Source: Hyphomicrobium facile
Lineage (GTDB): Bacteria; Pseudomonadota; Alphaproteobacteria; Rhizobiales; Hyphomicrobiaceae
Direction: 5' to 3'
Assembly: GCF_900116175.1 (NCBI RefSeq)
Contig: NZ_FPCH01000002.1
Coordinates: forward strand, 1,178,001-1,242,000
Length of the DNA: 64,000 nt
Below the pieces are notes generated by a model, which did no database searches, was not told where the DNA came from, and saw only the letters and a program-made list of their open reading frames with translations. Shown here in pieces: positions 42,159 to 61,646 of this stretch. A program made the translations under genes and the position numbers. Each line of letters opens with the position of its first letter. The first letter of the stretch is position 1.

Positions 42159-43640
42159 TCAGCCGCCGCCCTTCAGATACCAGCCCCACGGCTCACGGGT
42201 TGTGTAGGCGGTGATCTGCTTCGGCTCGAGGAAGTTGTTCAAGCCCCACGTTCCAAGCTCGCGACCGACACCGCTTTTTTTCACGCCGCCCCACGGTGGC
42301 TCGAGAAAATTCGGTTGCGAGCAATTGATCCAGACGACGCCTGCTTCGAAAGCGTCGGCGACGCGTTCCGCCCTCTTCAAGTCGCCCGACATGACGGCTG
42401 CGGCCAAGCCGAACTCGCTATCATTGGCCAAGGTCAGGGCTTCGTCTTCCGTATCGAAAGTCGTGACGGCGAGGACGGGGCCGAAAATCTCCTCGCGCCA
42501 AATTCGCGCGGTGGGCGCCACATCCGCGAAGATCGTCGGCTCCAGGAAGTAGCCTTCGTTGAGATGAGAAGGCCGGCCGCCGCCGGTTACGAGCGTTGCC
42601 TCCCTCTTTCCGTCATCGATATATCCTAGCACCTTGTCGTATTGGGTTTTGCTGACGAGCGGTCCCAGCAGTGTGCCCGGCGCCATGCCGTCGCCGATCG
42701 TGATCTTCTTGGCTTCCACTGAGAGCCGGTCGATGAGCTTCGGCGCGATGCGCTTCTCGACGATCATCCGCGATGTGGCGCTGCAGACTTGTCCCTGGTT
42801 CCAGAAGATTCCGAACATTACCCATTCGACGGCCTGCTCGATGTCGGCGTCGTCGAAGATGATGATCGGCGATTTGCCTCCAAGCTCAAGGCTGATGCTT
42901 TTGACGTCACGCGCCGCAGCGGAGGCGACCGCAATGCCCGTCGGGACGGAACCAGTGAAAGCGAGCTTGCGGACATCGGGATGCGACGCGAGGCGCGCGC
43001 CGGCGTCGGCTCCATATCCCGTGACGACGTTCAAGACGCCGTTCGGCAGGCCCGCTTCCGCTGCGATGCGCGCGAGTTCGAGCGCAGACAGCGGCGTATA
43101 CTCGGACGGCTTCAGCACGACCGCGCAACCTGCCGCGATTGCGGGCGCGACCTTCCAGGCTGCCATCAACAGGGGATAGTTCCACGGCACGATAAGACCG
43201 GCGACGCCTGCGGGCATGTATTTGACGCGCGACTGAAAACGCGCGTCGGGCACGCCGATGATCTCGCCTTGGCGCGCGTCCAGTTCCTCGGCGTATGTTG
43301 CGTAGAGATTGAAGCAATAGGCGGCGTCACCGATATCCCATAGGGCCTCGGGCAGCGGCTTGCCGTTGTCTCTCACCTCGATCTCGGCGAGCGTCTGCTT
43401 CTGCTCTTCGATCGCTGCGCCGATCGCGCGAAGGAAGGCGGCGCGATCACGGCCGGTCGTGCGCGACCATGGGCCGGCCATTGCGGCCTTCGCAGCTGCT
43501 ACCGCCGCGTCGATGTCGGCTGCTGATCCGGCAGCGCAGCGGTGGAAGGTTCGTTCGTTCGCGGGGTTGACGACGTCGAGCGTGCGAGCACCCAGCGCGT
43601 CACACCACTTTCCGTCGATGAAAAGTTTCGATTGCATCAT
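42159..43640 (-). CDS. Aminoaldehyde dehydrogenase (ALDH10/BADH-like)
   Basis: 493 residues from the ATG at 43640 (GGAAC upstream). The catalytic residues are the Cys in NQGQVCSATSR and the Glu in LELGGKSPI; the NAD-binding part contains PWNYPLLMAAWKVAPAIAAG. These segments and EWVMFGIFWNQGQ are closest to plant-type betaine/aminoaldehyde dehydrogenases (ALDH10), which oxidise 3-aminopropanal, 4-aminobutanal and betaine aldehyde. It follows the PLP enzyme gene on the same strand after 31 bases. It probably oxidises the aldehyde made by the dehydratase at 45249. Confidence 0.85.
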   Translation of the reverse strand: MMQSKLFIDGKWCDALGARTLDVVNPANERTFHRCAAGSAADIDAAVAAAKAAMAGPWSRTTGRDRAAFLRAIGAAIEEQKQTLAEIEVRDNGKPLPEALWDIGDAAYCFNLYATYAEELDARQGEIIGVPDARFQSRVKYMPAGVAGLIVPWNYPLLMAAWKVAPAIAAGCAVVLKPSEYTPLSALELARIAAEAGLPNGVLNVVTGYGADAGARLASHPDVRKLAFTGSVPTGIAVASAAARDVKSISLELGGKSPIIIFDDADIEQAVEWVMFGIFWNQGQVCSATSRMIVEKRIAPKLIDRLSVEAKKITIGDGMAPGTLLGPLVSKTQYDKVLGYIDDGKREATLVTGGGRPSHLNEGYFLEPTIFADVAPTARIWREEIFGPVLAVTTFDTEDEALTLANDSEFGLAAAVMSGDLKRAERVADAFEAGVVWINCSQPNFLEPPWGGVKKSGVGRELGTWGLNNFLEPKQITAYTTREPWGWYLKGGG

Positions 43641-43671
43641 AGTTCCAGAAAAACGATTGCTCGATCGGGCT

Positions 43672-45009
43672 TCAGATGACCTTCGCCAATGTGCTTCTGA
43701 AGCCATCGATGAAGATATCGGCATGCTCCCGAGTAAAGCAGAGCGGCGGACGGATCTTCAAGACGTTGCCGTGACCGCCTGCTATCCCGATAAGGATATT
43801 GCGCTCGCGCATGCCGTTGACGATTCTCTCGGCGAGGGCGCGATCGGGCTCGGCTGACGCCTTATCTTTCACGAGTTCGAGGCCGATGTAGAGGCCGGAG
43901 CCGCGCACGTCTCCGACGCGATCGCCGTTGCCGCCGGCAATGCGAAGCTCCGAGCGCAGATAGGCGCCGGTATCGAAGGCGTTTTCCTGCAGGCCTTCTT
44001 CGTTCAAGACATCCAAGACTGCCAATCCCGCGGCAGCCGCGACCGGATTGCCGCCGAATGTGTTGAAGTAGCCCGACTTCGATCCGAATGCCTCGAGCAT
44101 CTCGGGCTTGACCGCGACGCCTCCCATCGGGAAGCCGTTGCCCATTGGCTTCCCCATCACGACCATATCGGGCACCACACCGTGGCGGGCGAAACCCCAC
44201 ATTTTCTCGCCGGTGCGGCCGAAGCCCGGCTGCACCTCGTCGGCGATGTAGACGCCGCCCGCGTCGCGCACCGCCGAGACCGCTTCGGCCAGAAATCCCG
44301 GCTCGCCGGGGTAGACGCCGTCGCTCGAGAAGATGCTGTCGGCGATGAACCCGGCGAGTTGAATGCCGGCTGCCTTCATTCCCGCGATGGCTTTCCGAAT
44401 ATCCTCGGCGAATTTGGGTCCGATGGCTTCGCTACCGTGACGATACGTGTCCGGCGCGGGCACGAGGAACACGTACGGCGGCCGCGGCTCGGCGCTCGCG
44501 GACGATGGCGATATCTCCGTCACGGCCGTGGTGTTACCGTGATAGGCGTTCTCGGTCACGATGAAGCCCGTGCCGCCTGTCACCGCGCGGGCGATGCGCA
44601 GTGCGAGATCGCCGCTTTCGCTGCCTGTGCACGTGAACACGATATTCGAGACCGGCTCCGGCATCGTGGCCAGAAGGCGTTCGGCATACGTGTAGATGTT
44701 GTCGTAGAGGTAACGCGTGTGGGTGTTCAGCGTGCCGAGCTGCCGCGATATGGCCTCGACGACGCGGGGATGGCAGTGCCCGACGGACGGCACGTTGTTG
44801 TAAGCGTCGAGATAGCGCGTGCCATCGGCATCGTGGAGCCAGACGCCCTCGGCCCTGACGAGGTTCAACGGCCTTTCATAAAACAGCATCGAGGTCGGCC
44901 CGAATGTCTGCTTCCGGCGCTTGACGAGGCTCGTGACCGCGGGCGGCAGCTTGTCGGCTGCGTTCATGTCGAAGGCGTTGAGATCGAGAATTTTTCGCGT
45001 AGCTTCCAT
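43672..45009 (-). CDS. Class III PLP enzyme, AGXT2L-type ammonio-phospholyase-like
   Basis: 445 residues from the ATG at 45009 (AAGGGG upstream). Fold-type I PLP enzyme: D257 ([11 protein letters not shown]) and the PLP lysine K287 (VMGKPMGNG). Beyond the usual aminotransferase motifs, [27 protein letters not shown] and [18 protein letters not shown] recall human AGXT2L1/ETNPPL, the phosphoethanolamine phospho-lyase (comparison from memory), more than AGT2. Such lyases act on O-phosphorylated amino alcohols. A kinase of the matching type is at 55003. An ordinary omega-transaminase remains possible. Divergent from the dehydratase. Confidence 0.75.
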
Positions 45010-45248
45010 TGGGCCCCTTGGGCAAGCTCCCTGACAAATGCGCTGCGTCTCCGCATCGGTTTCGCTTAATATAGGGTACGCCGCCGGCAACAGCTTGACC
45101 CTTGAGAGCGGGGTCTGTTCAGTTTGACACGAGCCCCGGCCGGAGAACCCCGTCAACTTCGGGGCCGCTCTGGTCAAATCCCGTGGCGGCGCTCAGAGTA
45201 ACGTCAGTTCCGATTGCAATCGGGCACTCCATCGTCGAGAAAACAAGC

Positions 45249-47531
45249 ATGACCGATGAAACGCAGGCACGGCCAAATCGCTGGAAGCGATTTTCCGATT
45301 GGGACGAGCGCCCGCTCCGGCTCGACAAGTTCGCCGCCGAAGATGCCGCGAGCGGTTTTTCGGCGTTCAAAAGTCCTTTCGATCCCAAACCCGGACTGTC
45401 CCTCGGCGACGGCGTCGTCGAGTCCATGGACGGCATCGCCGTCCGCGACTTCGATATGATCGATGTGTTCATAGCCCGGTATCATCTCGATCCCGAAATT
45501 GCGCCGGAAGCGATGGCGATGCCATCTCTCGAAGTGGCGCGCATGCTCGTCGACATGAACGTGCCGCGAAAGACGCTGGTTCGGCTCGCGCACGGCATGA
45601 CGCCCGCCAAGCTCGCCGATGTCGTCAGTCATCTTTCATCGCTCGAGATCGCTTTCGCCTACAGCAAGATGCGGGCACGGCAGACGCCCGGCAATCAAGC
45701 GCACGTCACGAACGCGAAAGACGACCCGCTGCAGATGGCGGCCGATGCCGCAACGGCCGTGGCGTTCGGCTTCGACGAAATCGAGACGACGATGCGGGTT
45801 GCACGCAACTCCTGGTCGAACGCCGTTGCCTGCGCCGTCGGGGCTGCCGTCGGACGGTGGGGCGCGCTCTTTCAGTGCTCCAGCGAAGAAGCGGAAGAAC
45901 TCAAAATCGGCATGGCGGGCTTCACCTCCTACGCCGAGACCGTGTCGGTTTACGGCACCGAGAAGAGCTTCATCGACGGCGACGATACGCCCTGGTCGAA
46001 AGCATTTCTCGCGGCGGCCTATGCTTCGCGGGGCATCAAGATGCGGTGCACCTCAGGCGCAGGGTCCGAGTTGCTGATGGGCTTTCACGACCGCAAATCG
46101 CTGCTTTATCTCGAGGCGCGATGCCTTTGCCTGCAGCGCGCGATGGGCGTGCAAGGCACGCAGAACGGCGGCATCGACGGAGCCCCCGTCACGTGCACCG
46201 TTCCCGGCGGCATGCGCGAATTGATGGCCGAGAACCTGATCGCCGTCTGGCTCGATCTCGAATGCGCATCCGGCAACGACGCTCGCGCGACGGAATCGGA
46301 AATTCGCGTCGGCGCGAAGATCCTGCCGTATCTGATCGCAGGGTCCGATCTCATCTGTTCCGGCTTCGGCTCGATCCTCAAGTACGACAATTCGTTCAAC
46401 GCCTCGCTGCTCAACGGCGAGGAACTCGAGGATTATCTGGTTCTGCAGCGCGACTTCGAGGCCGACGGCGGGCTTACGCCGGTCGGCGAGACGCGCGTCA
46501 TGGAACTCAGGTCGCGGGCCGTCGATGCGATCAGCGCGGTGCTGGAAGAACTCGGGCTCGCGAAACCGACTGCCGACATGAAGCTCTCGGTCGTTGCCGC
46601 GTCCGGCTCGGATGAAACGCGGACGTTTTCGGGCCGCGACGTGGCGATGATCAGCGAAGCGATCTACGAGCGGTCGATCACGGTCATCGACGTCATCAAG
46701 GCGCTTGCTGCGCGGGGCTTCACCGAAGAAGCGGAAAACCTGCTGAAGCTCGTAAGGCTCCGCGTTTCCGGCGATTATCTGCAGACATCGGCTGTCGTTC
46801 GCGACGGGCGCATCGTCAGCGCAGTAAACAATCCCAACGATTATCAGGGTCCCGGCACCGGCTACCGTCTCACGGACGAACGCCGCGAGGAAATCGTCGC
46901 CATTCGCGATGTGCTGACGCGCCAAGAGGTGCTGAGGGTCGAGGCGGCCTTCAGGCCTGGGGAAGTCACGCGGGTCGCCTACCGGCCGACAGGTCCCGCC
47001 GCCGCCACGCATAATCCGAAGGAAGTCGTCATCGGCATCAGTCCGGCCTTCGGCTTGAAGCTCTTTCAAACCGTCGCCGGCCATCCTCTCTCCGCGATCT
47101 TGCGGGTGCTGATTGGCGGCATCACGGAAGGCGGCTGTACGGCCCGCGTCGTCCGGATGCGCCATACGGCAGATACCTCGTTCCTCGGGCTCAGCGCGGC
47201 GCGGCTCGCCGGCTCCGGCATCGGGATCGGCATTCAGGCAAAGGGCACCGCCGTCATTCATCAGAAAGACAGGCTGCCGCACAATAATCTCGAGCTCTTC
47301 TCGAACTCGCCGATTACCAAGATCGAGCATTACAAGCGGATGGGGCTCAACGCGGCCGCCTATGCGCTCGGCGAAATGCCCGAGCCCGTCATCGTGCCAA
47401 CACGTGGCGAGGCCATGGGCTCACGTTACCATGCCAGGGTTTCGCTCATCTACGCGATCGAGACGGAGATGACGTCCGAAGGCGCCGAACCAGAAGAGAT
47501 CGATGTGATGTTCCTCGGAGCTGCCGCATGA
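45249..47531 (+). CDS. Coenzyme-B12 diol-dehydratase-type enzyme, fused large and medium subunits
   Basis: 760 residues from the ATG at 45249. Residues 1 to about 570 match the large subunit of diol dehydratase (PduC), and about 585-760 match the medium subunit (PduD), including GSGIGIGIQAKGTAVIHQKD. Active-site residues of the Klebsiella enzyme map as Q141 to Q150, H143 to H152, E170 to E179, E221 to E230, Q296 to Q305 and D335 to D344, with Ser362 also kept. The side-chain pocket residues Ser301 and Gln336 correspond to Asp310 and Ala345. So the radical chemistry is probably intact but the substrate differs from glycerol and propanediol. A 4-base overlap couples it to the small subunit. No reactivase follows. 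Confidence 0.93.
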   Translation: MTDETQARPNRWKRFSDWDERPLRLDKFAAEDAASGFSAFKSPFDPKPGLSLGDGVVESMDGIAVRDFDMIDVFIARYHLDPEIAPEAMAMPSLEVARMLVDMNVPRKTLVRLAHGMTPAKLADVVSHLSSLEIAFAYSKMRARQTPGNQAHVTNAKDDPLQMAADAATAVAFGFDEIETTMRVARNSWSNAVACAVGAAVGRWGALFQCSSEEAEELKIGMAGFTSYAETVSVYGTEKSFIDGDDTPWSKAFLAAAYASRGIKMRCTSGAGSELLMGFHDRKSLLYLEARCLCLQRAMGVQGTQNGGIDGAPVTCTVPGGMRELMAENLIAVWLDLECASGNDARATESEIRVGAKILPYLIAGSDLICSGFGSILKYDNSFNASLLNGEELEDYLVLQRDFEADGGLTPVGETRVMELRSRAVDAISAVLEELGLAKPTADMKLSVVAASGSDETRTFSGRDVAMISEAIYERSITVIDVIKALAARGFTEEAENLLKLVRLRVSGDYLQTSAVVRDGRIVSAVNNPNDYQGPGTGYRLTDERREEIVAIRDVLTRQEVLRVEAAFRPGEVTRVAYRPTGPAAATHNPKEVVIGISPAFGLKLFQTVAGHPLSAILRVLIGGITEGGCTARVVRMRHTADTSFLGLSAARLAGSGIGIGIQAKGTAVIHQKDRLPHNNLELFSNSPITKIEHYKRMGLNAAAYALGEMPEPVIVPTRGEAMGSRYHARVSLIYAIETEMTSEGAEPEEIDVMFLGAAA

Positions 47532-47956
47532 CCGGGAAGCCTCTCACTGTCGCCGATTATCCGCTTGCCGAGAACCGGCCCGACGTGGTCGAGACGAAAG
47601 CCGGCAAGAAGCTCGATGACATCACGCTCGATGGCGTGCTGTCCGACCGCGTGTCGCTCGAAGATCTTCGCATCACGGACCGCGCGCTTCGCCAGCAGGC
47701 TGAAATCTCGACGGCGGCGGGGCGGCCGACGCTCGCTGCAAATTTCGAGCGCGGGGCCGAGCTGGTGGACGTTCCGCAAGACGTGATCATGCGGATCTAC
47801 GAGCTGCTGCGTCCGGGCCGGGCAGGCTCCAGGCAAGAACTGCTCGCGGCTGCGAGAGAACTCCGCGAAACCTACGGCGCCGAGGGCGTCGCGGCCTTTA
47901 TCGAGGAGGCGGCGGATGTCTATGAGCGCCGCTCTCTTTACAAAAAGCGTTTCTGA
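47528..47956 (+). CDS. Diol-dehydratase-type small subunit (PduE-like)
   Basis: 142 residues, coupled to the fused subunit by ATGA at 47528. Family phrases DYPLAENRPD, KKLDDITLDGVLS, LRQQAEISTAAGRPTLAANFERGAEL and DVPQDVIMRIYELLRP match the gamma subunit of diol/glycerol dehydratases. It helps hold the B12 cofactor-bound complex. The normal reactivase genes that follow such subunits in enterics and mycobacteria are replaced here by an isochorismatase-family gene. Confidence 0.92.
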   Translation: MTGKPLTVADYPLAENRPDVVETKAGKKLDDITLDGVLSDRVSLEDLRITDRALRQQAEISTAAGRPTLAANFERGAELVDVPQDVIMRIYELLRPGRAGSRQELLAAARELRETYGAEGVAAFIEEAADVYERRSLYKKRF

Positions 47957-47966
47957 AAGGACGGGC

Positions 47967-48662
47967 ATGAGCTGGAAGACGGGTTATCGATCCATCTATT
48001 ACGACGGCGCTCCGGAGCCAGACGACCCGGATCTCTCCAAGTCCCACACCGCCCTCCTCATCATCGACGTCCAGAACACCTACCTCTCCCGGCCGGATCG
48101 CGCGTCGCTGTCGCCGGAGGATCAACGGCGGTACGACGCTTGGACGCCCTTTCACAAGCGTATGCATGAAATCGTTCTGCCGAGAACGAAGGACCTTCTC
48201 GAGAGGTTTCGGCGGAACGGAATTGAATGCCTCTTCGCGCGCATCGCCTGCCATACCAAGGAGGGCCGGGACCGCTCGCTGTCGCAGAAGATGCCGGGCT
48301 GGAACAACCTTCTCTTGCCAAAAGACGAGTTGCCGTCCCAGATTGTCCCGGAGCTTCAGCCCATCGGGGATGAGATCGTCGTTACCAAGACGACAGACAG
48401 TGCACTGACGGGTACCAACCTGCGGCTGATCCTGACTAACCTCGGCATCAAAACCGTCGTCTGCTGCGGGATTTTCACGGACCAGTGCGTCTCGTCGACT
48501 GTCCGAAGCCTCGCCGACGAGAGCTTCGCCGTCGTCGTGGTCGAAGATTGCTGCGCAGCCGGGTCCGACGAGCTGCACCATAAGGAGCTCGAGATCATGA
48601 ACATGATCTATGGGCACGTCATGTCGAGCGCTGAACTCAACGCCCTGATGAAGCTGGCCTAA
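47967..48662 (+). CDS. Isochorismatase-family cysteine hydrolase
   Basis: 231 residues from the ATG at 47967 (GAAAGGA upstream), 10 bases after the small subunit. The catalytic triad is D34 (LLIIDVQN), K141 (VTKTTDSA) and C174 (FTDQCVSSTVR). The family hydrolyses amides, ureido and N-carbamoyl groups. Position in the operon suggests it acts on the same substrate or a product, for example an N-acyl or carbamoyl amine. The exact reaction is unknown. Confidence 0.88.
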   Translation: MSWKTGYRSIYYDGAPEPDDPDLSKSHTALLIIDVQNTYLSRPDRASLSPEDQRRYDAWTPFHKRMHEIVLPRTKDLLERFRRNGIECLFARIACHTKEGRDRSLSQKMPGWNNLLLPKDELPSQIVPELQPIGDEIVVTKTTDSALTGTNLRLILTNLGIKTVVCCGIFTDQCVSSTVRSLADESFAVVVVEDCCAAGSDELHHKELEIMNMIYGHVMSSAELNALMKLA

Positions 48663-48901
48663 ACCGCCTTGACGGCGTCCAGAAGGTCAAGTTTCCATAG
48701 AGGAGGGTCAAATCGACTTGGCCACCGCAGCATAGAGTGATGCCATCACAGAGGGGGGATCTTCCGTTACCGTGGACAACTGGCTGCATCGCTCTTCCTT
48801 ACTCGTCCTCCTTCCGTGGACGAGCCCCATCGATCGCTTCCGCTTCGCCCTGATGGTTTACGGGCAAAAACCTCATCATCCGCTCACCAGGAGTGACAGG
48901 C

Positions 48902-50056
48902 ATGTTCAATAGCAAATTCTCACGCCGCGACTTCTTGAAAACTTCGGCGTCCGCGGCGGCGACGCTGGCCGCCACCCAGATGGGCCCGTTCGCAGGCCCC
49001 GCCCGCGCGGCCCGTGACAAGGAACTGAATATCCTCTGTTGGGAAGGTTACAATTCGGCCCAGGTGCTCGACCCGTTCCGTTCGAGCAAGAGCGCGACGG
49101 TCAAGGCCGAAAGCCTGACCAACGATCCGACAATGATCAACCGTCTGCGCGCAGGCGAGATCAACGTTTGGGACCTGATCAACGTCAACAATCCTTGGGC
49201 ACGCAAAATCATGATGCCCGAGAAGCTGATCAAGCCGCTCGATCGTGCGAAGTTCGAGCCATACTTCGAGAAGATGATGCCGCAGTTCAAGCCGCCCTAC
49301 AAATGGGCGATGGACGACTCGGGCAAAGATCTGCTCGGCATGGCGCAGCGGTTCGGGCCCTACTCGTTCGTCGTCAACACCGACAAGATCAGCCGCAAAA
49401 CTGCAGAAGACCAGGGCTGGGATCTCTTCAACGATCCGAAGCTCGCCGGCCGCTTCGGCATTCTGGAGTCCGACGACTGGAACGTGTTCGGCGTCTGCTG
49501 CATCGCCGGCTTCGATCCGTATAAGGCGCACACCGCCGAAGAAGTCGCCAAGTTCGAGGAAACCGCAAAGCGCATTCTGAAGAACAAGAAGGTCGTGGGC
49601 GACATCGCCACCATGAACCAAGCCATGATTTCCGGCGAAATCGATTGCCATCTCACGGGCGGAACGTATTCGGCGTCTCCCGCGCGCGCAGACGGCCATT
49701 TGAATTTGCGTGGCATCACGCCAAACAAGGGACCTCTTGCCGGCGGCAAGGGCGGCATCGCCTGGATCGAAATCACCTCGGTCGTCAACAACCCGCAGGG
49801 CTCTCCGCTCGCCGAGCAGTTCCTGGAATACGTGCAGGCTCCAGAGGTCGCTCACACAGTGGCGTTCGCCGAAGGCACGTTCAATCCGGTCGCTCAGATG
49901 GGCAACCCCGAATGCTTCAAGCTCTTCAGCAAAGACCAGCTCGAAGCCATTCAGTGGGACAGCCTCGAAGAAGAGATGGCGCGTTCGGCCGAGTACGACA
50001 TCGTTCCCGACTACGACAAGCTGCTCGATATCTGGAACGCCGCGAAGAAATCCTGA
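48902..50056 (+). CDS. PotF/PotD-like substrate-binding protein with Tat signal
   Basis: 384 residues from the ATG at 48902 (CAGGAG upstream); a GTG at 48893 is less good. The signal has a twin-arginine motif (SRRDFLK), so the protein is exported folded. The mature part is a polyamine-type binding protein (LNILCWEGYN, VVNTDKI). It probably captures an amine for the PotGHI-like genes 120 bases downstream. A stem-loop separates it from the ATPase gene. Confidence 0.9.
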   Translation: MFNSKFSRRDFLKTSASAAATLAATQMGPFAGPARAARDKELNILCWEGYNSAQVLDPFRSSKSATVKAESLTNDPTMINRLRAGEINVWDLINVNNPWARKIMMPEKLIKPLDRAKFEPYFEKMMPQFKPPYKWAMDDSGKDLLGMAQRFGPYSFVVNTDKISRKTAEDQGWDLFNDPKLAGRFGILESDDWNVFGVCCIAGFDPYKAHTAEEVAKFEETAKRILKNKKVVGDIATMNQAMISGEIDCHLTGGTYSASPARADGHLNLRGITPNKGPLAGGKGGIAWIEITSVVNNPQGSPLAEQFLEYVQAPEVAHTVAFAEGTFNPVAQMGNPECFKLFSKDQLEAIQWDSLEEEMARSAEYDIVPDYDKLLDIWNAAKKS

Positions 50057-50105
50057 GCTGCATGACGTTTGCGTCGTGACCTCAGTAAACGGCATGTAAT
50101 GCTTC

Positions 50106-50135
50106 GGCCTTCCGCCGCTCGATAGGCGGAAGGCC
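50106..50135 (+). terminator. Stem-loop between binding protein and ABC ATPase genes
   Basis: A perfect 11-base stem GGCCTTCCGCC / GGCGGAAGGCC with an 8-base loop follows the binding-protein gene. No T-run. It probably protects the 3' end of the binding-protein mRNA and lowers downstream expression. Confidence 0.75.
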
Positions 50136-50177
50136 CGACGCGTTTCTCATTAGCTTCAAAGAAGTTGGAACTCCTAC

Positions 50178-52108: not shown

Positions 52109-52112
52109 CGTA

Positions 52113-52922: not shown

Positions 52923-52985
52923 AACAAACTCTCAACTCTCGATCTCAACAAGACCAACAACGCGGCCCCTAAGGAGGTTATGTCC

Positions 52986-53765
52986 ATGTTCACGTCTATC
53001 GCAGGCCGGTCCGTCATCGTCACCGGCGGAAGCAAGGGCATCGGCAAGGGTATTGCGCGCGTCTTTGCAAAGAGCGGCGCAAAGGTCGTCGTCGTCTCGC
53101 GGCATCTGAAAGAGGCGGAGTCAACCGCTGAAGAGTTGCGCCGGGACGGTGGCACCGCAATGGGTTTCGCCGCCGACGTCACGAGCATGGGCGACTTGCA
53201 GGTTCTCGCAGAAGCGACTGCCACGGCTTACGGCGGCATCGATATCCTGTGCGCCAACGCCGGCATTTTTCCTCAGACCAAGATCGAGGAACTGTCGCCG
53301 GAAGATTGGGACTTCGTTTCCGATACGAACCTCAAGGGAACGTTCCTGTCGGTCAAAGCCTGCCTGCCGTATCTGAAGAAATCGGATCAGGGGCGCATCG
53401 TCATCACCTCGTCGATTACAGGCCCGATCACGGCCTTCCCGGGCTGGTCGCACTACGGTGCGACGAAAGCAGGACAGCTCGGCTTCATGCGCACGGCCTG
53501 CATGGAGTTCGCGAAGTACGGCATTACGGTCAACGCGGTTCTGCCGGGCAATATCGCGACTGAGGGTCTTGCGGCTCTCGGACCGGAGTACGAGAAGTCC
53601 GCTGCGGCTTGCATCCCGCTTCAGAAGCTCGGCAAGGTCGAGGATATCGGTTACGCGGCGCTGTTTTTCGCGTCCAAGGAAGCCGCCTACGTTACCGGAC
53701 AGACGATCATCGTTGACGGCGGTCAGATCCTGCCCGAAAGCACCGATGCGCTGGCGCAGGCCTGA
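52986..53765 (+). CDS. SDR oxidoreductase of the amine island
   Basis: AAGGAGG at 52972-52978 lies 7 bases before the ATG at 52986 but only one base before the ATG at 52980, so the second start is preferred (259 residues). NAD(P) motif TGGSKGIGKGIA, catalytic Y-x3-K in SHYGATKAG, C-terminal DGGQI. The sequence is like FabG-type dehydrogenases. It may oxidise an alcohol of the imported substrate or reduce an aldehyde. It is convergent with the AraC regulator, 27 bases away. Confidence 0.87.
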   Translation: MFTSIAGRSVIVTGGSKGIGKGIARVFAKSGAKVVVVSRHLKEAESTAEELRRDGGTAMGFAADVTSMGDLQVLAEATATAYGGIDILCANAGIFPQTKIEELSPEDWDFVSDTNLKGTFLSVKACLPYLKKSDQGRIVITSSITGPITAFPGWSHYGATKAGQLGFMRTACMEFAKYGITVNAVLPGNIATEGLAALGPEYEKSAAACIPLQKLGKVEDIGYAALFFASKEAAYVTGQTIIVDGGQILPESTDALAQA

Positions 53766-53792
53766 CGCATCGCCAGGTGAGGCGAATTCTGA

Positions 53793-54896
53793 TCAGCTTT
53801 GCTTGTCCAGTACCTCCGCGCGCAGCGCGCGCGGAGAAAGGCCGGTCCATCGCCGGACAGCGCGGCTGAAAGCGGAGAGTTCGGAATAGCCGACGAGGAA
53901 GGCTATTTCAGAGAACGACAGCTGGCGCTGGCGCACATAGGACAGCGCCAAGTCGCGGCGCGTGCTTTCGACGAGGGTGCTGTAGCTCAGTCCGTCGTAA
54001 TGAAGCTCGCGCTGAATGGTGCTGAGCGGAAGCCGCAGCTCGGCGGCCACGCATTCGATTTGCGGAAAGCCTTCAGGCAGTCTCGCGCGCACGGCGCTGC
54101 GAACGCGATCGGTAATGCTGAAGCGCACATCGCTACGCTCGGAGAGCCTATCGAGGCAAAGTTTCATGGCGCACATGAGCCGCGGATCGGCAGCCGGCAT
54201 TACCTGCTTCAGGATTTGCGGCCGGAACACGATCGCATTGGTCGGCTGCGAGAAGAAGGCCGGTGCCGCGAATGCGCGCTCATGCTCGCGCCAACCTTCG
54301 GGCTTCGGATGCTCGAAATGAACTTCCTCCGGGGCCCAGCTCTGGCCCATCGCTTCGCGAATGAAATTGAGGAACATGCCGAGCGACAGTTCCGCGTCTT
54401 GCCGGCGTTCGACGATTTGCGGCGCGTCGATGCGATATTCGAGTCGGGCCAGGCCATCGGGCGTCGTCTTCAGCGCCATCGACGAAGACTGCTGGTGCAG
54501 CGGAAAGAGTTCCACGAGCGTTTCGAGAGCGACGCAGAGCGAGGGAGCGGAGAGCGAGGCATATCCCCAAAGACCGAGGTCTCGCGGATCGAACGCATTG
54601 CCGAACCACAAGCCGAAATTATCGTTTCGGGTTATTCGCGCGCTTTCCTCGAACAGGCGGCAGTATGAGCTGAGGCTCAACTGCAGAGTCGGAGAGCCGG
54701 CCATTTCAGGCGAGATACCGACGCTGCCGAAAATGCGATCGACGTCGCCGCGCTGGCGCTCGATGAATTTCACTATCCCGGTGGCGGCGGAGGCTAGAAC
54801 AGAAGGGTCGGTCCCTCGGCCCATAGAGGTACCAGCGCCGCTCGTTCCGAAGTCGCTAATGCCGAGTGCCATCGTTTCCTGGTGAGCAGATGCCAA
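53793..54896 (-). CDS. AraC-family regulator
   Basis: 367 residues (an ATG at 54872 is also possible). The last 100 residues hold the two HTH motifs (AAELRLPLSTIQRELHYDG and FSEIAFLVGYSELSAFSRAVRRW). The N-terminal 200 residues match the arabinose-binding-like domain of OruR/ArgR-type regulators. Its place among amine genes suggests it senses the substrate and activates the island. It is read away from the kinase gene on the same strand, 106 bases after it. Confidence 0.88.
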   Translation of the reverse strand: MASAHQETMALGISDFGTSGAGTSMGRGTDPSVLASAATGIVKFIERQRGDVDRIFGSVGISPEMAGSPTLQLSLSSYCRLFEESARITRNDNFGLWFGNAFDPRDLGLWGYASLSAPSLCVALETLVELFPLHQQSSSMALKTTPDGLARLEYRIDAPQIVERRQDAELSLGMFLNFIREAMGQSWAPEEVHFEHPKPEGWREHERAFAAPAFFSQPTNAIVFRPQILKQVMPAADPRLMCAMKLCLDRLSERSDVRFSITDRVRSAVRARLPEGFPQIECVAAELRLPLSTIQRELHYDGLSYSTLVESTRRDLALSYVRQRQLSFSEIAFLVGYSELSAFSRAVRRWTGLSPRALRAEVLDKQS

Positions 54897-55002
54897 TATT
54901 CCAGAGAAAAAAGGCTAGCAGAAGCGGCCCGCGGGTCAACCGTCATGCGCGGTGAAATATTCGGCACTCGTCAAAAACAACTGCACAATTGCGGTGCAGC
55001 AT

Positions 55003-56097
55003 TCAGCCCAAAAGTCGTTTCAGGAAACCTTTCTTCGGCGGTGCAGCAAGGTTCTTACCCGCGGCACTGCCGTACTGTGAGATGTACCGCTCGCAAAGCG
55101 CGATCGATCCTTGAGTGTATTCCACGCCCATCGATTTCGCGAGTTCGGTTTCCGAATGCGATCCGATCCACGCCACGAGGAGAAGCCTCCGCAGCATGAC
55201 GAACGTCGCGATCTCGCTTTCCTCTGCCTCGCTCAAATTGCCTATGCGGCGATAGCCGCGAACCCACGCATTGAGCAGATCCGGCACCTCCGGCATATGC
55301 TCGAAGAACGAGACCGTCGTCGCGCAATCGTAAAGGAGCCAGGAAAAGCCGCAGTCGTCGAAATCGATGACCTTCACGGTGCTGCCGTCCATCAGAAGAT
55401 TGGCGAGACGCATATCGCCGTGCACGAGATTGAAGCGATCGGGCGATTTGCCGAAGTTCTCGAGACGCCGTCCGATCAGCGCGACGGCTTCGGTGATGGC
55501 CGCCGTCGCCTCCGGCGTCATGCCCATTCCGTCCTTCCAGTAGCCCCAATGAGGACGACTGCCGAGGCTGGTATCGAAATCCCAGGTGAAGCGTTCGAAC
55601 CAGACCGGCCGCCGCCACTTGCGAACATGGGCGTGCATGCGGGCCGCCGTTTCGCCGAGCATCTCGAAGCCAGCGACGTCGGTGCTCGACGGCTCAGAGC
55701 CATTCTCCCATTGAAACAGCACGACGTTGCGCGGGTTTGGCAGCCCGTCAGCCGCAACCGTCTGGATATATTCGCCGTCGAGGCCCCTGAGCGCCGTCGG
55801 CGTGGCGACGCCGGCATTTTCGCGGAGAGCCGAAAGCCATGCGAGCTCGGAAGCTATCGCAGTGCGCGAATGATATTTTTCGCGATGGACACGCAGCGCC
55901 CACTTTTGCCCCGTGCTGCTATCGACGCGATACGTTGCATTCTCGGAGACGTTTATGAGCTTGATCGTGCAGTCGCCCGGAAGGCCGTAGCGCCTTACCG
56001 CGCGCTCGGCCAGGATCTGCAATCGCTGCAACAGCTCTTCGTGTGTCGCCTCATCAGTACCCGTCATGCCTACTGCCTTGACTCCCGTGCGCTTCAT
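55003..56097 (-). CDS. Aminoglycoside-phosphotransferase-fold small-molecule kinase
   Basis: 364 residues from the ATG at 56097; an ATG at 56067 would give 354. Kinase motifs: the catalytic loop HGD (226-228) with N233, and DFD (245-247) of the metal-binding motif VIDFDD. The fold is shared by choline, homoserine, 5-hydroxylysine and ethanolamine-type kinases. Because the PLP enzyme at 43672 looks like a lyase of O-phosphorylated amino alcohols, the pair could run kinase then phospho-lyase. It follows patD by 132 bases on the same strand. Confidence 0.85.
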   Translation of the reverse strand: MKRTGVKAVGMTGTDEATHEELLQRLQILAERAVRRYGLPGDCTIKLINVSENATYRVDSSTGQKWALRVHREKYHSRTAIASELAWLSALRENAGVATPTALRGLDGEYIQTVAADGLPNPRNVVLFQWENGSEPSSTDVAGFEMLGETAARMHAHVRKWRRPVWFERFTWDFDTSLGSRPHWGYWKDGMGMTPEATAAITEAVALIGRRLENFGKSPDRFNLVHGDMRLANLLMDGSTVKVIDFDDCGFSWLLYDCATTVSFFEHMPEVPDLLNAWVRGYRRIGNLSEAEESEIATFVMLRRLLLVAWIGSHSETELAKSMGVEYTQGSIALCERYISQYGSAAGKNLAAPPKKGFLKRLLG

Positions 56098-56229
56098 TGA
56101 GAGGCGGCCTTTCGACCGCTTCTCTTTTTTGCAAACACTACGGGGCGACGGGAAAGCGAACTTGACCTCGCCGCCGTGTCAGTTGACAGGGCGGGCCGCG
56201 TGCCTCGGTGGCGCTCTGCGCAACCGCGA

Positions 56230-57657
56230 CTAGAGCTTCACCATCACGTGACGCGGTACGGTGTAATCCTCGAGCGCATACATCGAGAGATCCTTGCCGT
56301 AGCCCGACATTTTCAGGCCGCCGTGCGGCATCTCGCTGACGAGCATGAAATGGGTGTTGACCCATGTGCAGCCGTATTGCAGCCGCGACGCCACCTTCAT
56401 GCCCTTGGCGATGTCCGACGTCCAAACCGAAGACGCGAGCCCATAATCGCTGTCGTTCGCCCAGGCGATCGCTTCGTCGGCATCGTCGAACGGCGTGATC
56501 GAGACGACGGGGCCGAACACTTCCTTGCGAACGATCTCATCGTTCTGCGTGGCGCCCGCGACGACCGTCGGTTCGAAGAAGAAGCCTTTTCCTGCTGCGG
56601 GCTTACCGCCGGTGGCCATAACGATATGGTTTTGCAGACTTGCCCGGTCGACGAACGACTTCACGCGTTCCTTGTGAGCCGACGAGATCAACGGCCCGAG
56701 GTCGTTCTCGTCGTCGTTGGGCTGGTTGTACTTGAGTTCCTTCACCGCGCTCGAAAGATCGGCGACGAGGTTGTCGTAGACTTTTTTCCCGGCATAGATG
56801 CGGCACGCCGCGGTGCAATCCTGGCCGGCGTTGTAGAAGCCGAAGATCTTCACGCCCTCAACGACGGATGCTATGTCGGCATCGTCGAAAACGATGACGG
56901 GCGCCTTGCCGCCCAATTCCAAATGCGTGCGCTTGATGTTCGTGGCTGCCGCCTGCAGCACCTTCTGGCCGGTGCCGATGCTGCCCGTGAGCGACACCAT
57001 CGCGACCTTCGGATGGTTGATCAGCGCGGAGCCTGTTGTCGAACCTTTGCCGACGACGATGTTCACCACGCCTTCGGGGAAAATATCGGCGATGATCTTG
57101 CCGAGCTTCAGAAGCGTCAGAGGCGTCTGCTCGGACGGCTTCAACACGATCGTGTTGCCGCCCGCGAGCGCCGGGGCAAGCTTCCACGCCGCCATCATCA
57201 GCGGATAGTTCCACGGTGCGATGGAGCCGACGACGCCGACCGGATCACGGCGGATCATGGACGTATGGCCGGCCATGTATTCGCCGGCGACGGGGCCGTG
57301 CATGTTGCGAACGGCGCCTGCGAAGAAGCGGAAGCAATCGACGATCGCCGGCATTTCATCCTGCAGAACGCGAATGCGGGGCTTGCCGGTATTCAAGGCC
57401 TCGAGCGTGGCGAAGCCTTCAGCGTCACGCTCGATGGCATCGGCGAGCTTCAAGAGCAACGTCGAGCGTTCGCCGACGGTCGTTTGCGACCAAGCTTTAA
57501 ACGCCTTGTCCGCAGCATTGACTGCCGCATCGACCTGGGCGGCAGACGCGTCCGGCAGATTGGTGATGATCTCTTCCGTCTTCGGATTGACAACGGGTTC
57601 CGGCGCGTCCGTACCGGCAACGAAGTCAGAGCCGATCAGCATGTTGGTGTCGAGCAT
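56230..57657 (-). CDS. patD: Gamma-aminobutyraldehyde dehydrogenase
   Basis: 475 residues from the ATG at 57657, where CTGGAGGAT precedes; the ATG at 57672 is upstream of that site and unlikely. It matches E. coli PatD (YdcW) throughout: [64 protein letters not shown] and the C-terminal [23 protein letters not shown]. The catalytic Cys is in GQDCTAAC. It oxidises 4-aminobutanal to GABA in putrescine breakdown. Follows ydcV by 24 bases. Confidence 0.93.
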
Positions 57658-57681
57658 CTTATCCTCCAGCATTTAAGTCCG

Positions 57682-58500
57682 TTACTTTGAAGAGCCGCCG
57701 GTGTGTTCGCCTTCTCGCGTCAGATAATAGGCTGCGAGGATCGGCAATAGCGTTACGATGAACACGAATACGGCGACGACGTTCGTCACCGGCCTTTGAC
57801 GTGGCCGGATAAGTTCGGAAAGCATCCAGATCGGCAGAGTCGTTTGCTGACCGGCGGTGAATGTGGTGACGATCACCTCATCGAATGAGAGCGCAAACGC
57901 GAGCATGCCGCCGGCGAGCAACGCCGTCCCGATTTGTGGAAGGATGATGTGGCGGAAGGTCTGGAACGAGTTGGCGCCAAGGTCCATCGAGGCCTCGACG
58001 AGATTTCCATTCAGCCTGCGAAATCGCGCGACCGCATTGTTGTAGACGACGACGATGCAGAACGTCGCGTGGCCGAGAATGATCGTCCAGACCGAGAACG
58101 GTATGCTCATGATGTCGAAGGCGGAGCGAAGCGCGATACCCGTGATGATGCCGGGCAGCGCTATCGGCAGCACGAAGAGAAGCGAGATCGTCTCGCGGCC
58201 GAAGAAGCGGGCCCGCGAGAGGGCGGCTGCGGCAAGCGTCCCGAAAATAAGGGCGAGCACCGTCGCGATCGCCGCGACCTGCAGCGATAAGTAGAGTGGC
58301 TGCCAGATATCCGGCCGCGATGACCAGGCGACCCCGAACCATTTGGTGGTGAGGCCGGGCGGCGGGAACTCGAAGCTCTTTTCCTCGGTCGTGAAGGCGT
58401 AGAGGAAGATCAACGCCAGCGGCAGATGGAGGAACAGCAGCCCCGCAATTGCCGAGATCCGCAAGCCGAGCGGCGTTGAGCGGTTGGCTTTAGAGGACAT
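57682..58500 (-). CDS. ydcV: YdcV-like polyamine ABC permease
   Basis: 272 residues, six membrane segments, with the EAA motif region [20 protein letters not shown]. It overlaps ydcU by 11 bases. In E. coli the order ydcS-T-U-V-W is the same, which supports the names. Confidence 0.9.
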
Positions 58501-59428
58501 TGAACGCCCCCATGCGTTTCGCCATCCAGAGATAGATGGCCATGATCAGCATCGGCACGACAGTGAAGGCCGCGGCGAGCGGGATGTTTCCGGCGGTTCC
58601 CTGAAGCGTGTAGACGGCCTGCCCGATCATCAGGCGCGAATTGCCGACGATCTGCGGGATGATGTAGTCGCCGAGCGTCAGGGAAAACGTGAAGATCGAT
58701 CCGGCGACGATGCCGGGAAGCGCCAACGGAAAGATCACTGTCCGGAAGGTCTGGCGGGGATCGGCTCCGAGGTCGGCGGACGCCTCGATGAAGTTCGCGG
58801 GAACGCGCTCGAGCGCTGCTTGCGTCGGCAGGATCATGTACGGCAGCCAGATATAGACGAAGACAAGAAACGTGCCGATATAGCTAAACGAAAGCGACGG
58901 GCCGCCCACTACGGGCAACGCGAGAATGCCGTCAAGCAGCCACCTGAGATGCAGTTCGTTCGCGAACCAGGTTATGATCCCTTCCTTGGCGAGGATCAGC
59001 TTCCAGGCATAGACCTTGACCAGATAGCTCGACCAGAGCGGCATCATGACCGCGAGATAGAAGAGAGCCTTCGTCCAGCCGCGCGCGTATCGCGCTGCAT
59101 AGTACGCAATCGGGAAAGCGATGATCGCGCTCGCGACCGTCACGAGGGCCGCCATGGTGACGGTGCGCAGAATGATCTGGGCGTTGGACGCTTCGAAAAG
59201 TTGTTCGTAGGTCGCGAGCGTGAACTCGTGAACGACGAGGCCCGAGAAATCGTCGAGCGAATAGAAGCTCTGGAGCAGAAGCGCGAACAGCGAGCCGATA
59301 TAGACGACGCCGATCCAGAGCAGCGGCGGCGTCAGCAACAGGAACGTAACGAGCTGCGGGCGCGCGAAGAACAGGTCCGAGATCGCGCCGCCGATCCCTC
59401 TCTGCCTTTCTGCTACGGCCGCGGTCAC
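58490..59428 (-). CDS. ydcU: YdcU-like polyamine ABC permease
   Basis: 312 residues from the GTG at 59428, which overlaps the ydcT stop codon (GTGA). Longer frames to 59674 would overlap ydcT. Six membrane segments, EAA motif [20 protein letters not shown]. Confidence 0.9.
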
Positions 59429-60444
59429 GCGCCCTCTCCCATCGCCACCATCGCGGACTTCGGCCAGATCAGAGAGACGCTGTCGCCTTTGCGCACATCC
59501 GTTCCTGCAGGCGTCGTCGCGATGAGCGCCAGTTTTTCCGTCGCGACCGTGATGCGCGTAACCGCACCTTGATAGCTGATTGCTGTGACTATTCCTTTGG
59601 CGTGCGCGCAGGCGGCGGGCACCAGGGCATTTTGAGGCGCGATCTGGATTTTTTCGGGCCTCAGGCTCGTCCACGCGGCGCGGCCGCCGTGTGTGGCTGC
59701 AAATTCAGGTGACAGCACGTTCGAAGAGCCGACGAAATCGGCGACGAAGCGCGAGGTCGGCCGTTCGTAGACGTCGGACGGCGTGCCGACCTGGACGATC
59801 TTGCCTTCGTTGAAGATTGCGACCCTGTTGGCCATCGACAGCGCCTCGCCCTGATCGTGCGTCACAAACACGAACGTTATGCCGAGGCTCGTCTGCAGCG
59901 ATTTCAATTCTTCCTGCATCTGCTCGCGGAGCTTCAGGTCGAGCGCGCCGAGCGGCTCGTCGAGCAGCAGCACTTTGGGTCCGTTGACCAGGGCCCGGGC
60001 GAGCGCAACGCGCTGGCGCTGACCGCCCGAAAGCTGCGCCGTGCGGCGGCTCTCGTAGCCCGCGAGCTTGACCATCGCGAGCGCGCTTTTTGCTTTCTCT
60101 TCTCGCTCGGCTTTGCCAACGCCCTTGATCATCAGACCGTAGGCGACGTTTTCGCCGACCGTCATGTGCGGGAACAGAGCGTAGTCCTGAAACACGGTGT
60201 TGACGTTGCGACGGTAGGGCGGCACGCCGTCGGCGGTCTCGCCGAATATTTCAATGTGGCCCTCGTCCGGCTGCTCGAAGCCGGCGATCAGGCGGAGGCA
60301 CGTCGTCTTTCCGGAGCCCGATGGACCGAGAAGGGCGAAGAATTCTCCCGGCTCAATGTCGAGAGACACGTTGTCGACGGCGCGCACTGAGCCGAAGCGA
60401 CGCGATACATTCTGAAAGCGAACTGCTGGAGACATGAAACTCAT
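59425..60444 (-). CDS. ydcT: YdcT-like polyamine ABC ATPase
   Basis: 339 residues from the ATG at 60444 (ATG at 60435 is equally possible). Walker A GPSGSGKTT, signature LSGGQRQRVALARAL, Walker B VLLLDEPLGALD, and a C-terminal TOBE domain ending TPAGTDVRKGDSVSLIW. Uptake of putrescine-like amines. Confidence 0.92.
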   Translation of the reverse strand: MSFMSPAVRFQNVSRRFGSVRAVDNVSLDIEPGEFFALLGPSGSGKTTCLRLIAGFEQPDEGHIEIFGETADGVPPYRRNVNTVFQDYALFPHMTVGENVAYGLMIKGVGKAEREEKAKSALAMVKLAGYESRRTAQLSGGQRQRVALARALVNGPKVLLLDEPLGALDLKLREQMQEELKSLQTSLGITFVFVTHDQGEALSMANRVAIFNEGKIVQVGTPSDVYERPTSRFVADFVGSSNVLSPEFAATHGGRAAWTSLRPEKIQIAPQNALVPAACAHAKGIVTAISYQGAVTRITVATEKLALIATTPAGTDVRKGDSVSLIWPKSAMVAMGEGA

Positions 60445-60450
60445 CGGATG

Positions 60451-60482
60451 CCTGCGGCCGGCCATGAGCGGCCGACCGCAGG
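60451..60482 (-). terminator. Stem-loop between ydcS and ydcT
   Basis: The arms CCTGCGG and CCGCAGG enclose the inner pair CGGCC/GGCCG around ATGAGC. Same position, after the binding-protein gene, as the stem-loop at 50106 in the other ABC operon. No T-run, so it is more likely an mRNA-stability or attenuation hairpin than a full terminator. Confidence 0.65.
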
Positions 60483-60491
60483 GAGTGTCGA

Positions 60492-61646
60492 TTACTTGCC
60501 GAGAATGGCGATGTAGTCTTTCGCCCATTGCGAATAGGGCACGCAAGAGCTTTCCTTCTCGCACTTTGCCGTCGGCGTGCGCCAGAACCAGATTTTGTCG
60601 AAGTTTCCGAAGCCGTTCGTCTCGCAGCCCGTATCCGTCAACAGTGCGTTGCCCTTGCAGGCGGACGGAACCGTCGGTACCGAACCAAACCACGAGGCTA
60701 GATCGCCCTGGAGCTTCGGGTTCAAGGAGTGCTCGAGCCACTTGTACGCGCAGTTCGGATGCTTGGCGTCGACGTGCATCATCGTCGTGTCGGCCCAACC
60801 GGTCGCACCCTCCTCAGGAATGGTCGAGGCGATGGGCTTTTTGTCAGCCTGCAGCAGGTTCACCTGATAGGGCCACGAAGACGATGCGACGACACCCTCG
60901 TTCTTGAAGTCATCGACCTGCACGGTCGCATCGTGCCAATAGCGGCCGATGAGCGCGCGTTGCGCCTGCAGCAAGGCGATGGCGGCGGCGTACTGTTCCT
61001 TATTCAGCTCGTAAGGATTCTTGATGCCGAGCTCCGGCTTCTTCTTGCTGAGGTAGAGCGCGGCGTCAGCGATGTAGATCGGGCCGTCATAAGCCTGCAC
61101 GCGGCCTTTGTTGCTCTTGCCGTCGGGAAGGTTCTGTTCCTCGAACACCACCGACCAACTCTTCGGGGCTTCCTTGAAGACGTTCGTATTATAGGCGAGC
61201 ACGTTCGGTCCCCACTGATAGGGAACGCCGTAGTGAACATCATCGACCGTATGCCACGGCGCAGTCTGCAGCCGGGGATCGATCTTCATCCAGCTCGGGA
61301 TCAGCTGAATGTTGATCGGCTGGACCTTCTTGCCGGCGACGAGTCGCAGCGATGCGTCGCCCGATGCGGTGACGAGGTCGAAGCCGCCCTGGTTCATCAG
61401 CGTGACCATCTCATCGGAGGTCGCTGCTGTCTTGACGTTGACCTTGCAGCCGGTTTCTTTTTCGAAATCCGTCACCCAGTCGTAATTCTTGTCGGACTCT
61501 CCCCGCTCGATGTAGCCGGGCCACGCTACGATATCGACCTGTCCTTCTCCTTCGCCTACGGATTTGAGCGGATCGCCCGAGACGGCGAAGCTGCCCATAA
61601 AAAGTAGCGCTCCGGCCGCAACAAGTGTCTTCCGACTGGGCATCAT
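60492..61646 (-). CDS. ydcS: YdcS-like polyamine-type binding protein
   Basis: 384 residues from the ATG at 61646, 9 bases after GGAGGAG. A Sec signal peptide (about residues 1-24) precedes the PotD/YdcS-like lobes (VDIVAWPGYIERGE, VPYQWGPNVLAYN, WLEHSLNP). It has several cysteines in the C-terminal lobe, probably disulfides. First gene of the ydcSTUV-patD operon and expected to bind a polyamine. Confidence 0.9.
   Translation of the reverse strand: MMPSRKTLVAAGALLFMGSFAVSGDPLKSVGEGEGQVDIVAWPGYIERGESDKNYDWVTDFEKETGCKVNVKTAATSDEMVTLMNQGGFDLVTASGDASLRLVAGKKVQPINIQLIPSWMKIDPRLQTAPWHTVDDVHYGVPYQWGPNVLAYNTNVFKEAPKSWSVVFEEQNLPDGKSNKGRVQAYDGPIYIADAALYLSKKKPELGIKNPYELNKEQYAAAIALLQAQRALIGRYWHDATVQVDDFKNEGVVASSSWPYQVNLLQADKKPIASTIPEEGATGWADTTMMHVDAKHPNCAYKWLEHSLNPKLQGDLASWFGSVPTVPSACKGNALLTDTGCETNGFGNFDKIWFWRTPTAKCEKESSCVPYSQWAKDYIAILGK

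Follow-up and report, generated by a model that had tools for sequence, protein, structure and literature searches.

A probable shell-less relative of the RMM2 gene set in Hyphomicrobium facile, with a diol dehydratase of altered substrate pocket

The genome of Hyphomicrobium facile (4.43 Mb in 5 contigs, 100% complete) was found to encode, in a 64,000-nucleotide stretch of contig C4 (the window), a module at positions 42159-56097 that is conserved across Alphaproteobacteria and comprises a B12-dependent diol dehydratase with its small subunit, a hydrolase, an importer, a short-chain dehydrogenase/reductase (SDR), a kinase and a class-III pyridoxal phosphate (PLP) enzyme. The module appears to be a shell-less relative of the RMM2 gene set, one of the Rhodococcus and Mycobacterium microcompartment (RMM) types, and is probably descended from that set, because shell proteins are encoded in 33 of 48 other genomes with the dehydratase and in none of 22 genomes of the same genus. 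As to function, we lean slightly towards a catabolic module for a small amino-alcohol, into which an aminated diol would be fed via the dehydratase. An aminated diol is the favoured substrate of the dehydratase, at roughly even chances, and no claim is made as to its identity.

Kinship with RMM2 loci and conservation of the neighbourhood

Four enzymes of the module, with gene calls checked by open reading frames and family scans of the window proteins, recall those of RMM loci. The dehydratase (45249-47531, plus strand) is a protein of 760 aa with fused large and medium subunits (PF02286, 712 bits; PF02288, 93 bits) and the only PF02286 match in its genome. The SDR (52980-53765, plus strand; SDR family, 202 bits; FabG by NCBIfam name) may be akin to amino-2-propanol dehydrogenase: its best structures are 6ci8 and 6ci9 (298 and 297 bits), which we take to be the M. 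smegmatis enzyme of this name from RMM, with a lead of only about 12 bits over 3rih (286 bits) and then 3pk0 (280 bits). The nearest structure to the APH-fold amino-alcohol kinase (55003-56097, minus strand; PF01636, 84 bits) is 6ef6 (E = 2.5e-87; next solved structure, 2e-12), presumably the amino-2-propanol kinase of the M. smegmatis RMM. The class-III PLP enzyme is of the AGXT2L type (43672-45009, minus strand; class-III PLP family, 250 bits), with 5g4i, a 'phospholyase' (386 bits), and 6tor, an ethanolamine-phosphate phospho-lyase (364 bits), as nearest structures and the next at 178 bits; it is predicted from sequence to be phospho-lyase kin.

According to the sections of Axen et al. (2014; PMC4207490) consulted, the RMM2 set includes a diol dehydratase, an SDR, an APH phosphotransferase, a class-III PLP enzyme and an amino acid permease. 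The first four are all matched in the window, whereas the permease is matched, by an APC permease, only in relatives (see below). The window further differs from RMM2 loci in lacking a shell match in its genome and a CoA-acylating aldehyde dehydrogenase (CoA-ALDH) in the locus, and in having an ABC importer and the hydrolase. The RMM1-type locus on plasmid pRHL2 of R. jostii RHA1 (L138) encodes proteins 37% and 47% identical to the window kinase and class-III enzyme, respectively; unlike the window, it has shell genes and no dehydratase in the 25 kb shown.

Scanning the species genomes yielded 144 stretches that encode a relative of the dehydratase, from which the best 80 loci were kept, so that the set leans to close relatives; the nearest named one, L030, is from a Hyphomicrobium metagenome-assembled genome and has a 99% identical dehydratase. 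Neighbourhood counts are based on the 57 loci with at least 17 kb of DNA (long loci). All 57 encode the small subunit, 45 the SDR (counted at 50% identity or more), 42 an APH-family kinase and 40 the hydrolase, an association across 45249-56097 that is far beyond chance. The first-pass annotation had let its proposal depend on a conserved neighbourhood in relatives, and one was found for this part of the window. The dehydratase itself occurs in 25 of the 150 genomes in a sample of relatives (own genome included and counted) and in 13 of the 22 genomes of the same-genus set, and proteins matching PF02286, of whatever kind, occur in 9 genomes of a class-wide sample of 385.

The genes named by the first-pass annotation are in place, with family scores over cut-off or clear homology; its list lacked the small subunit (47528-47956, plus strand; PF02287, 169 bits), whose gene overlaps both neighbours. 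The overlap is 41 bases with the gene for the isochorismatase-fold cysteine hydrolase (47916-48662, plus strand; PF00857, 124 bits), which has 6azo, a 'putative amidase', as its best solved relative (63 bits). In L051, L052, L057 and L064, where the hydrolase is missing, a class-I glutamine-amidotransferase-like protein is encoded 3' of the small subunit, as if one cysteine amidohydrolase had replaced another, yet L036, L066 and L074 have both. The importer, also on the plus strand, consists of a PotD-like solute-binding protein (SBP) with a twin-arginine signal (48893-50056; PF13416, PF10518), a PotA-like ATPase (50178-51251; TIGR01187, 299 bits, under the cut-off of 356), a PotB-like permease (51248-52108; NF007044, 136 bits, under the cut-off of 348) and a second permease (52113-52922), assigned by its position and by a homologue cluster found in 40 of the 80 loci, with 35 members nearest this gene. 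On the minus strand, a QhpR-like AraC-type regulator (53793-54896; NF049968, 302 bits, cut-off 250) is 43.5% identical to the product of an AraC gene adjoining a kinase/phospho-lyase pair in Acinetobacter. At the other end of the module, an NAD(P)-type aldehyde dehydrogenase (ALDH1; 42159-43640, minus strand; PF00171, 563 bits) lies 31 bases from the AGXT2L-type gene on the same strand, and the two probably form one operon.

Two functions alternate among the long loci. The importer is represented by a PotD-type SBP in 30 and by an APC permease in 19, with both in none and neither in 8. The class-III enzyme is of the AGXT2L type only in 14 and of another type, AT3b, only in 25, with both in 1 and neither in 17, the last often reflecting the end of the compared DNA. 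AT3b is 23-29% identical to the AGXT2L-type enzyme of the window, is nearer to transaminases, and has no match at E ≤ 1e-60 in any of the 22 same-genus genomes. AGXT2L-type proteins (E ≤ 1e-90) are absent from 14 of 31 genome entries, at least one genome being counted twice among these entries, and 13 of the 14 are shell-bearing.

PF00936 gave no match in the own genome or in the 21 further genomes of the same-genus set; PF03319 was not searched genome-wide. The 48 other dehydratase genomes cited above result from 50 of the 80 loci that were submitted to the genome-wide search, 2 of them without a genome. In the sample of 150 relatives a shell match is present in 8 of 25 dehydratase genomes vs. 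4 of 125 others; among those eight, G116 has an enzyme of the Ser301 type (see below) and G048 is barely over the cut-off. CoA-ALDH and the shell protein BMC-T mostly go as a pair, occurring together in 15 of the 57 long loci and singly in one each, and the CoA-ALDH cluster, which was not searched genome-wide, has no member in the Hyphomicrobium loci. A tblastn search of the 80 loci with R. jostii shell proteins matched BMC-H in 15, each of two BMC-T in 18 and BMC-P in 14, with identities, in six loci each, of 81-85% for BMC-H, 60-69% for BMC-T (45% in one row) and 47-51% for BMC-P. A R. jostii hypothetical protein matches 5 of the 80 loci weakly, and Pfam gave no match for cluster 38, a conserved protein of about 146 aa encoded in shell-bearing loci.

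The dehydratase tree has 87 rows, of which 56 carry a shell label; it was made by a quick method with SH-like approximate likelihood ratio test (SH-aLRT) support only, leaves 18 forks open and contains several long branches, of which two are joined. It requires at least 6 changes of the label, and well-supported branches force 5 of these. The Hyphomicrobium clade stands beside the shell-bearing L043 (SH-aLRT 90) inside a group of mixed state (82), and Mesorhizobium stands beside the shell-bearing L044 and L055 (93). With moderate support, loss of the shell appears likelier than gain for both genera; on the early branch that holds Ancylobacter, Agrobacterium and Shinella, the tree does not distinguish gain from loss.

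Substrate pocket of the dehydratase

The window enzyme has the same domains, subunits, and catalytic and metal-site residues as the diol dehydratases of propanediol utilization (PDU) and glycerol metabolism, to which it is 46-50% identical. The equivalents of Q141, H143, E170, E221, Q296, D335 and S362, which include catalytic and metal-site residues, are Q150, H152, E179, E230, Q305, D344 and S371 (numbering by offset to 1dio and alignment), and they are kept in 81 of 81 sequences. The window enzyme differs from those dehydratases in its fused subunits and in the C3 site, where Ser301 and Gln336 are both changed: Asp310, Ala345 and Arg346 stand for Ser301, Gln336 and Thr337. These changes extend through the subfamily, counted over 88 sequences (the window, the 80 loci, two plasmid loci and five class-sample sequences that possibly repeat some loci; fragments L118 and L119 omitted). 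The Ser301 position is Asp in 88 of 88, vs. Ser in all seven other dehydratases compared, and the Gln336 position is Ala in 79, Thr in 7 and Cys in 2, vs. six Gln and one Ala in the others. At the Thr337 position the subfamily has Arg in 85, Lys in 2 and Ala in 1, and at the His340 position Glu in all 88. An alphaproteobacterial dehydratase at L112 (genome G296), with the top PF02286 score of the class sample (878 bits), has Ser301 but Ala336. No actinobacterial dehydratase was among the matches listed in plasmid searches with the dehydratase (60 of 93 records) and with the kinase (40 of 93).

In the portion of PMC7674605 covered, glycerol has two bound conformations, and its C3 hydroxyl is directed at Ser301 in the one that is tied to inactivation; S301A and Q336A variants are tabulated there, and a redesign for longer diols is cited by title. 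The same source names the fused dehydratases of Mesorhizobium loti and M. smegmatis, whose subunit fusion the window enzyme shares, as candidates for glycerol conversion. The substitutions found in the Mesorhizobium loci would make plain glycerol less likely as the natural substrate of those enzymes. The altered C3 pocket suggests a different, possibly nitrogen-bearing, diol, and an aminodiol such as 3-amino-1,2-propanediol, which the first-pass annotation gave as an example, is possible. It is tempting to suppose that Asp310 may bind an ammonium group at C3.

The diol dehydratase reactivase (DDR; PF08841) is also without a match in the own genome, unlike the case of the PDU/glycerol enzymes, and a reactivase gene adjoins the dehydratase in 5 of 5 plasmid loci of ordinary dehydratases that were opened. 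Over 56 genomes, PF08841 exceeded its cut-off in one, G116, which has a Ser301-type dehydratase, and gave a sub-threshold match in G570. Lack of a reactivase is not confined to the Asp type, because G296, with Ser at 301, likewise has no PF08841 match.

A predicted amino-alcohol pathway and its rivals

The order of steps that we infer is as follows. The PotD-type importer (in other strains the APC permease) would bring the amine in, and the isochorismatase-fold enzyme may hydrolyse an amide precursor, which is the weakest step. The adenosylcobalamin (AdoCbl) dehydratase would take an aminated vicinal diol, in the simplest case 3-amino-1,2-propanediol, and strip it of one hydroxyl; the SDR would interconvert the resulting amino-ketone and amino-alcohol; the kinase would phosphorylate the amino-alcohol; and the AGXT2L-type enzyme would free ammonia and phosphate, leaving a short aldehyde for oxidation by a soluble aldehyde dehydrogenase, here perhaps ALDH1. 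Of three orders of steps that would fit the genes, one leads from the aminodiol via aminoacetone, 1-amino-2-propanol and its phosphate to propanal, and it uses every enzyme. The more general suggestion of the first-pass annotation, an amine-alcohol pathway with a B12 dehydratase, is supported, and the genome encodes adenosyltransferases of the CobO and PduO families. A far more specific version seems doubtful to us: an AdoCbl dehydratase of a new class, specific for cationic aminodiols (3-amino-1,2-propanediol or one of its near homologues), that would operate with no DDR reactivase and form aminoacetone by a reversed regiochemistry, in a linear dehydratase-SDR-kinase-phospho-lyase pathway to propanal whose shell was dropped in several alphaproteobacterial lineages.

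The kinase/phospho-lyase pair of the window probably serves something other than ethanolamine, since a second AGXT2L gene in the own genome (L162, C5:1332000-1350000), whose product is 50% identical to that of the window, adjoins a choline/ethanolamine-kinase-like gene; plain ethanolamine may already be served by that pair. The choline/ethanolamine-kinase-like protein is only remotely like the window kinase, and the second phospho-lyase gene also adjoins genes for an FAD-oxidoreductase/GcvT fusion and a glycine-betaine-type SBP. A haem-containing dehydratase (PF13816) is encoded at L162 as well.

A number of observations weigh against the aminodiol pathway. The aminoacetone branch requires an unusual regiochemistry, with the terminal hydroxyl removed by the dehydratase, and Asp310 may instead pair with Arg346, which changes along with it, as does His340 to Glu. 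In 15 of the 57 long loci no APH kinase is seen in the compared DNA. The phospho-lyase step finds no apparent support in the shell-bearing loci, whose class-III enzyme, where seen, is AT3b, and the predicted Aut/RMM1 pathway, as given in the part of PMC6620236 consulted, uses a transaminase making lactaldehyde. ALDH1 was not found within the compared DNA beside the AGXT2L-type gene of the close relatives L033 and L063.

Gene rows on plasmids bear on the same question. On plasmids of Agrobacterium cucumeris and Shinella, a dehydratase of the subfamily (64% identical, with Asp310) is encoded in a single same-strand row with a class-III PLP enzyme, an APH-family kinase and an SDR; the stretch also has an ABC importer of the sugar type and lacks shell genes. 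In Shinella the kinase and the PLP enzyme are identified by annotation only, and the window was compared with the Agrobacterium row. There the PLP enzyme is 54% and the SDR only 29% identical, and the kinase has no BLAST match to the window kinase at E 1e-6, so that the row parallels the window in its kinds of enzyme but is not an orthologous operon. The pAt plasmids of A. fabrum C58 and A. tumefaciens encode a kinase, phospho-lyase, SDR, importer and hydrolase, and the 17-19 kb shown for them include no dehydratase. In the C58 row (L137; 19 kb shown), which differs from the window in this lack, the kinase is 42%, the phospho-lyase 56%, the SDR 59%, the SBP 70% and the hydrolase 65% identical to the window proteins. 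Because a row without dehydratase has so similar an SBP, the importer substrate, by this comparison, need not be a diol. Taken with the parallel plasmid rows and the 15 loci without a kinase, the pAt rows indicate that the dehydratase is an add-on that joined an amino-alcohol core, possibly more than once. In the A. tumefaciens row a gene of the CbiZ family (adenosylcobinamide amidohydrolase; L139:16179-16853) follows the hydrolase; CbiZ releases the aminopropanol part of cobinamide. At the equivalent position of A. fabrum C58 stands a gene without a Pfam match.

The dehydratase might also act on an ordinary diol while the kinase and phospho-lyase act on 1-amino-2-propanol, the two arms meeting at one aldehyde, or it might stand outside the amine pathway altogether. 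Kinase modules without dehydratase in the other stretches shown, and dehydratase loci without a kinase, agree with such a division. So does the view of Axen et al. 2014 (PMC4207490), in the sections consulted, that RMM2 does not use its dehydratase, partly for its opposite strand, with a 'bifunctional' compartment left open as the less preferred option. The grouping of all four enzyme kinds, from dehydratase to PLP enzyme, in a single gene row of Agrobacterium and Shinella, and a pocket unlike that of the seven propanediol/glycerol-type enzymes compared, make this unlikely in our judgement.

The same enzymes could also run in a chemically ordinary order on serinol (2-amino-1,3-propanediol), which the kinase and phospho-lyase would turn into hydroxyacetone, the SDR into 1,2-propanediol and the dehydratase into propanal, before an aldehyde dehydrogenase finishes the route. 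All conserved enzymes would be used, the end product would be an aldehyde as in RMM, and a related 1-amino-2-propanol dehydrogenase acts on an alpha-substituted acetone, according to the portion of PMC6620236 covered. The dehydratase would then need to accept a methyl at the C3 site, where Ser is always replaced by Asp in the subfamily and Gln mostly by Ala, and we consider the serinol route distinctly improbable. Still harder to sustain is the conversion of an aminodiol by the dehydratase to 3-aminopropanal, followed by an aminoaldehyde dehydrogenase making beta-alanine, as put forward in the first-pass annotation. It has in its favour the canonical regiochemistry of the dehydratase and a nearby aminobutyraldehyde-type aldehyde dehydrogenase (ALDH2), present also in L033 and L063, neither of which shows ALDH1. 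ALDH2, however, is part of a YdcS/PatD-type module that was seen next to the dehydratase in close relatives alone, the kinase and phospho-lyase would have to serve another substrate, and these two enzymes and the SDR are left without work, all of which makes this route very unlikely. An aminated diol remains the substrate that we favour.

Adjoining genes and significance

The first-pass annotation had treated the whole 19 kb between 42159 and 61646, the outer ends of its first and last genes, as a single pathway. We set 56230-61646 (minus strand) apart as probably a separate YdcS/PatD-type module outside the pathway, because ALDH2 is rarely found beside the dehydratase and because of the family scores: ALDH2 reaches 793 bits with NF010000 (cut-off 615), and a YdcS-like SBP, encoded along with two permeases and an ATPase, reaches 661 bits with NF041888 (under its cut-off of 725). 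With the general Aldedh domain ALDH2 scores 543 bits, vs. 563 for ALDH1. The arrangement resembles what we take to be the make-up of the E. coli ydcSTUV-patD operon, and it is probably a neighbour rather than a member of the amino-alcohol system. ALDH2 adjoins the dehydratase module in 6 of the 57 long loci, all very close relatives; where the importer is of the long ABC form, the place expected for ALDH2 is at or past the end of the compared DNA, which limits the rejection of a single 19-kb pathway. In 19 loci with the shorter permease variant that place lies inside the compared DNA (L031 and L035 are cut short), and ALDH2 is present in 3; in other loci with inspected gene rows, shell genes, AT3b or other genes come after the kinase.

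ALDH1 is a candidate soluble aldehyde oxidiser. Close homologues (87-97%) are encoded in L030, L031, L032, L034 and L098, and homologues at 35-46% in L040, L045, L054, L087, L088, L090 and L093. Because ALDH1 was found in the compared DNA neither of L033 and L063 nor of L035-L038, its role in the pathway is a guess. The window contains no Rfam or tRNA features; promoter-like sites (2 vs. 4.5 expected) and terminator-like sites (29 vs. 18.6, sd 4.7) were not used as evidence.

The first-pass annotation had called its pathway possibly undescribed. The enzyme set is that of RMM2 loci in the account of PMC4207490, as far as consulted, and the shell-bearing alphaproteobacterial loci may already stand in the 2021 catalogue PMC8217296, of which a part was covered; the term holds only for the shell-less set, of which the open-licence papers on RMM, microcompartments and diol dehydratase that were searched, taken in part and by their main text, contain no description, nor any test of this dehydratase. 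In the portions of this literature covered, the dehydratase of RMM2 has no agreed role, and the shell-less rows, together with a pocket substitution that extends through the subfamily, offer a direct and cheap test of that role. The lack of a DDR reactivase match bears on how AdoCbl dehydratases avoid suicide inactivation, and the existence of related lineages with and without a shell allows a test of the purpose that the shell serves.

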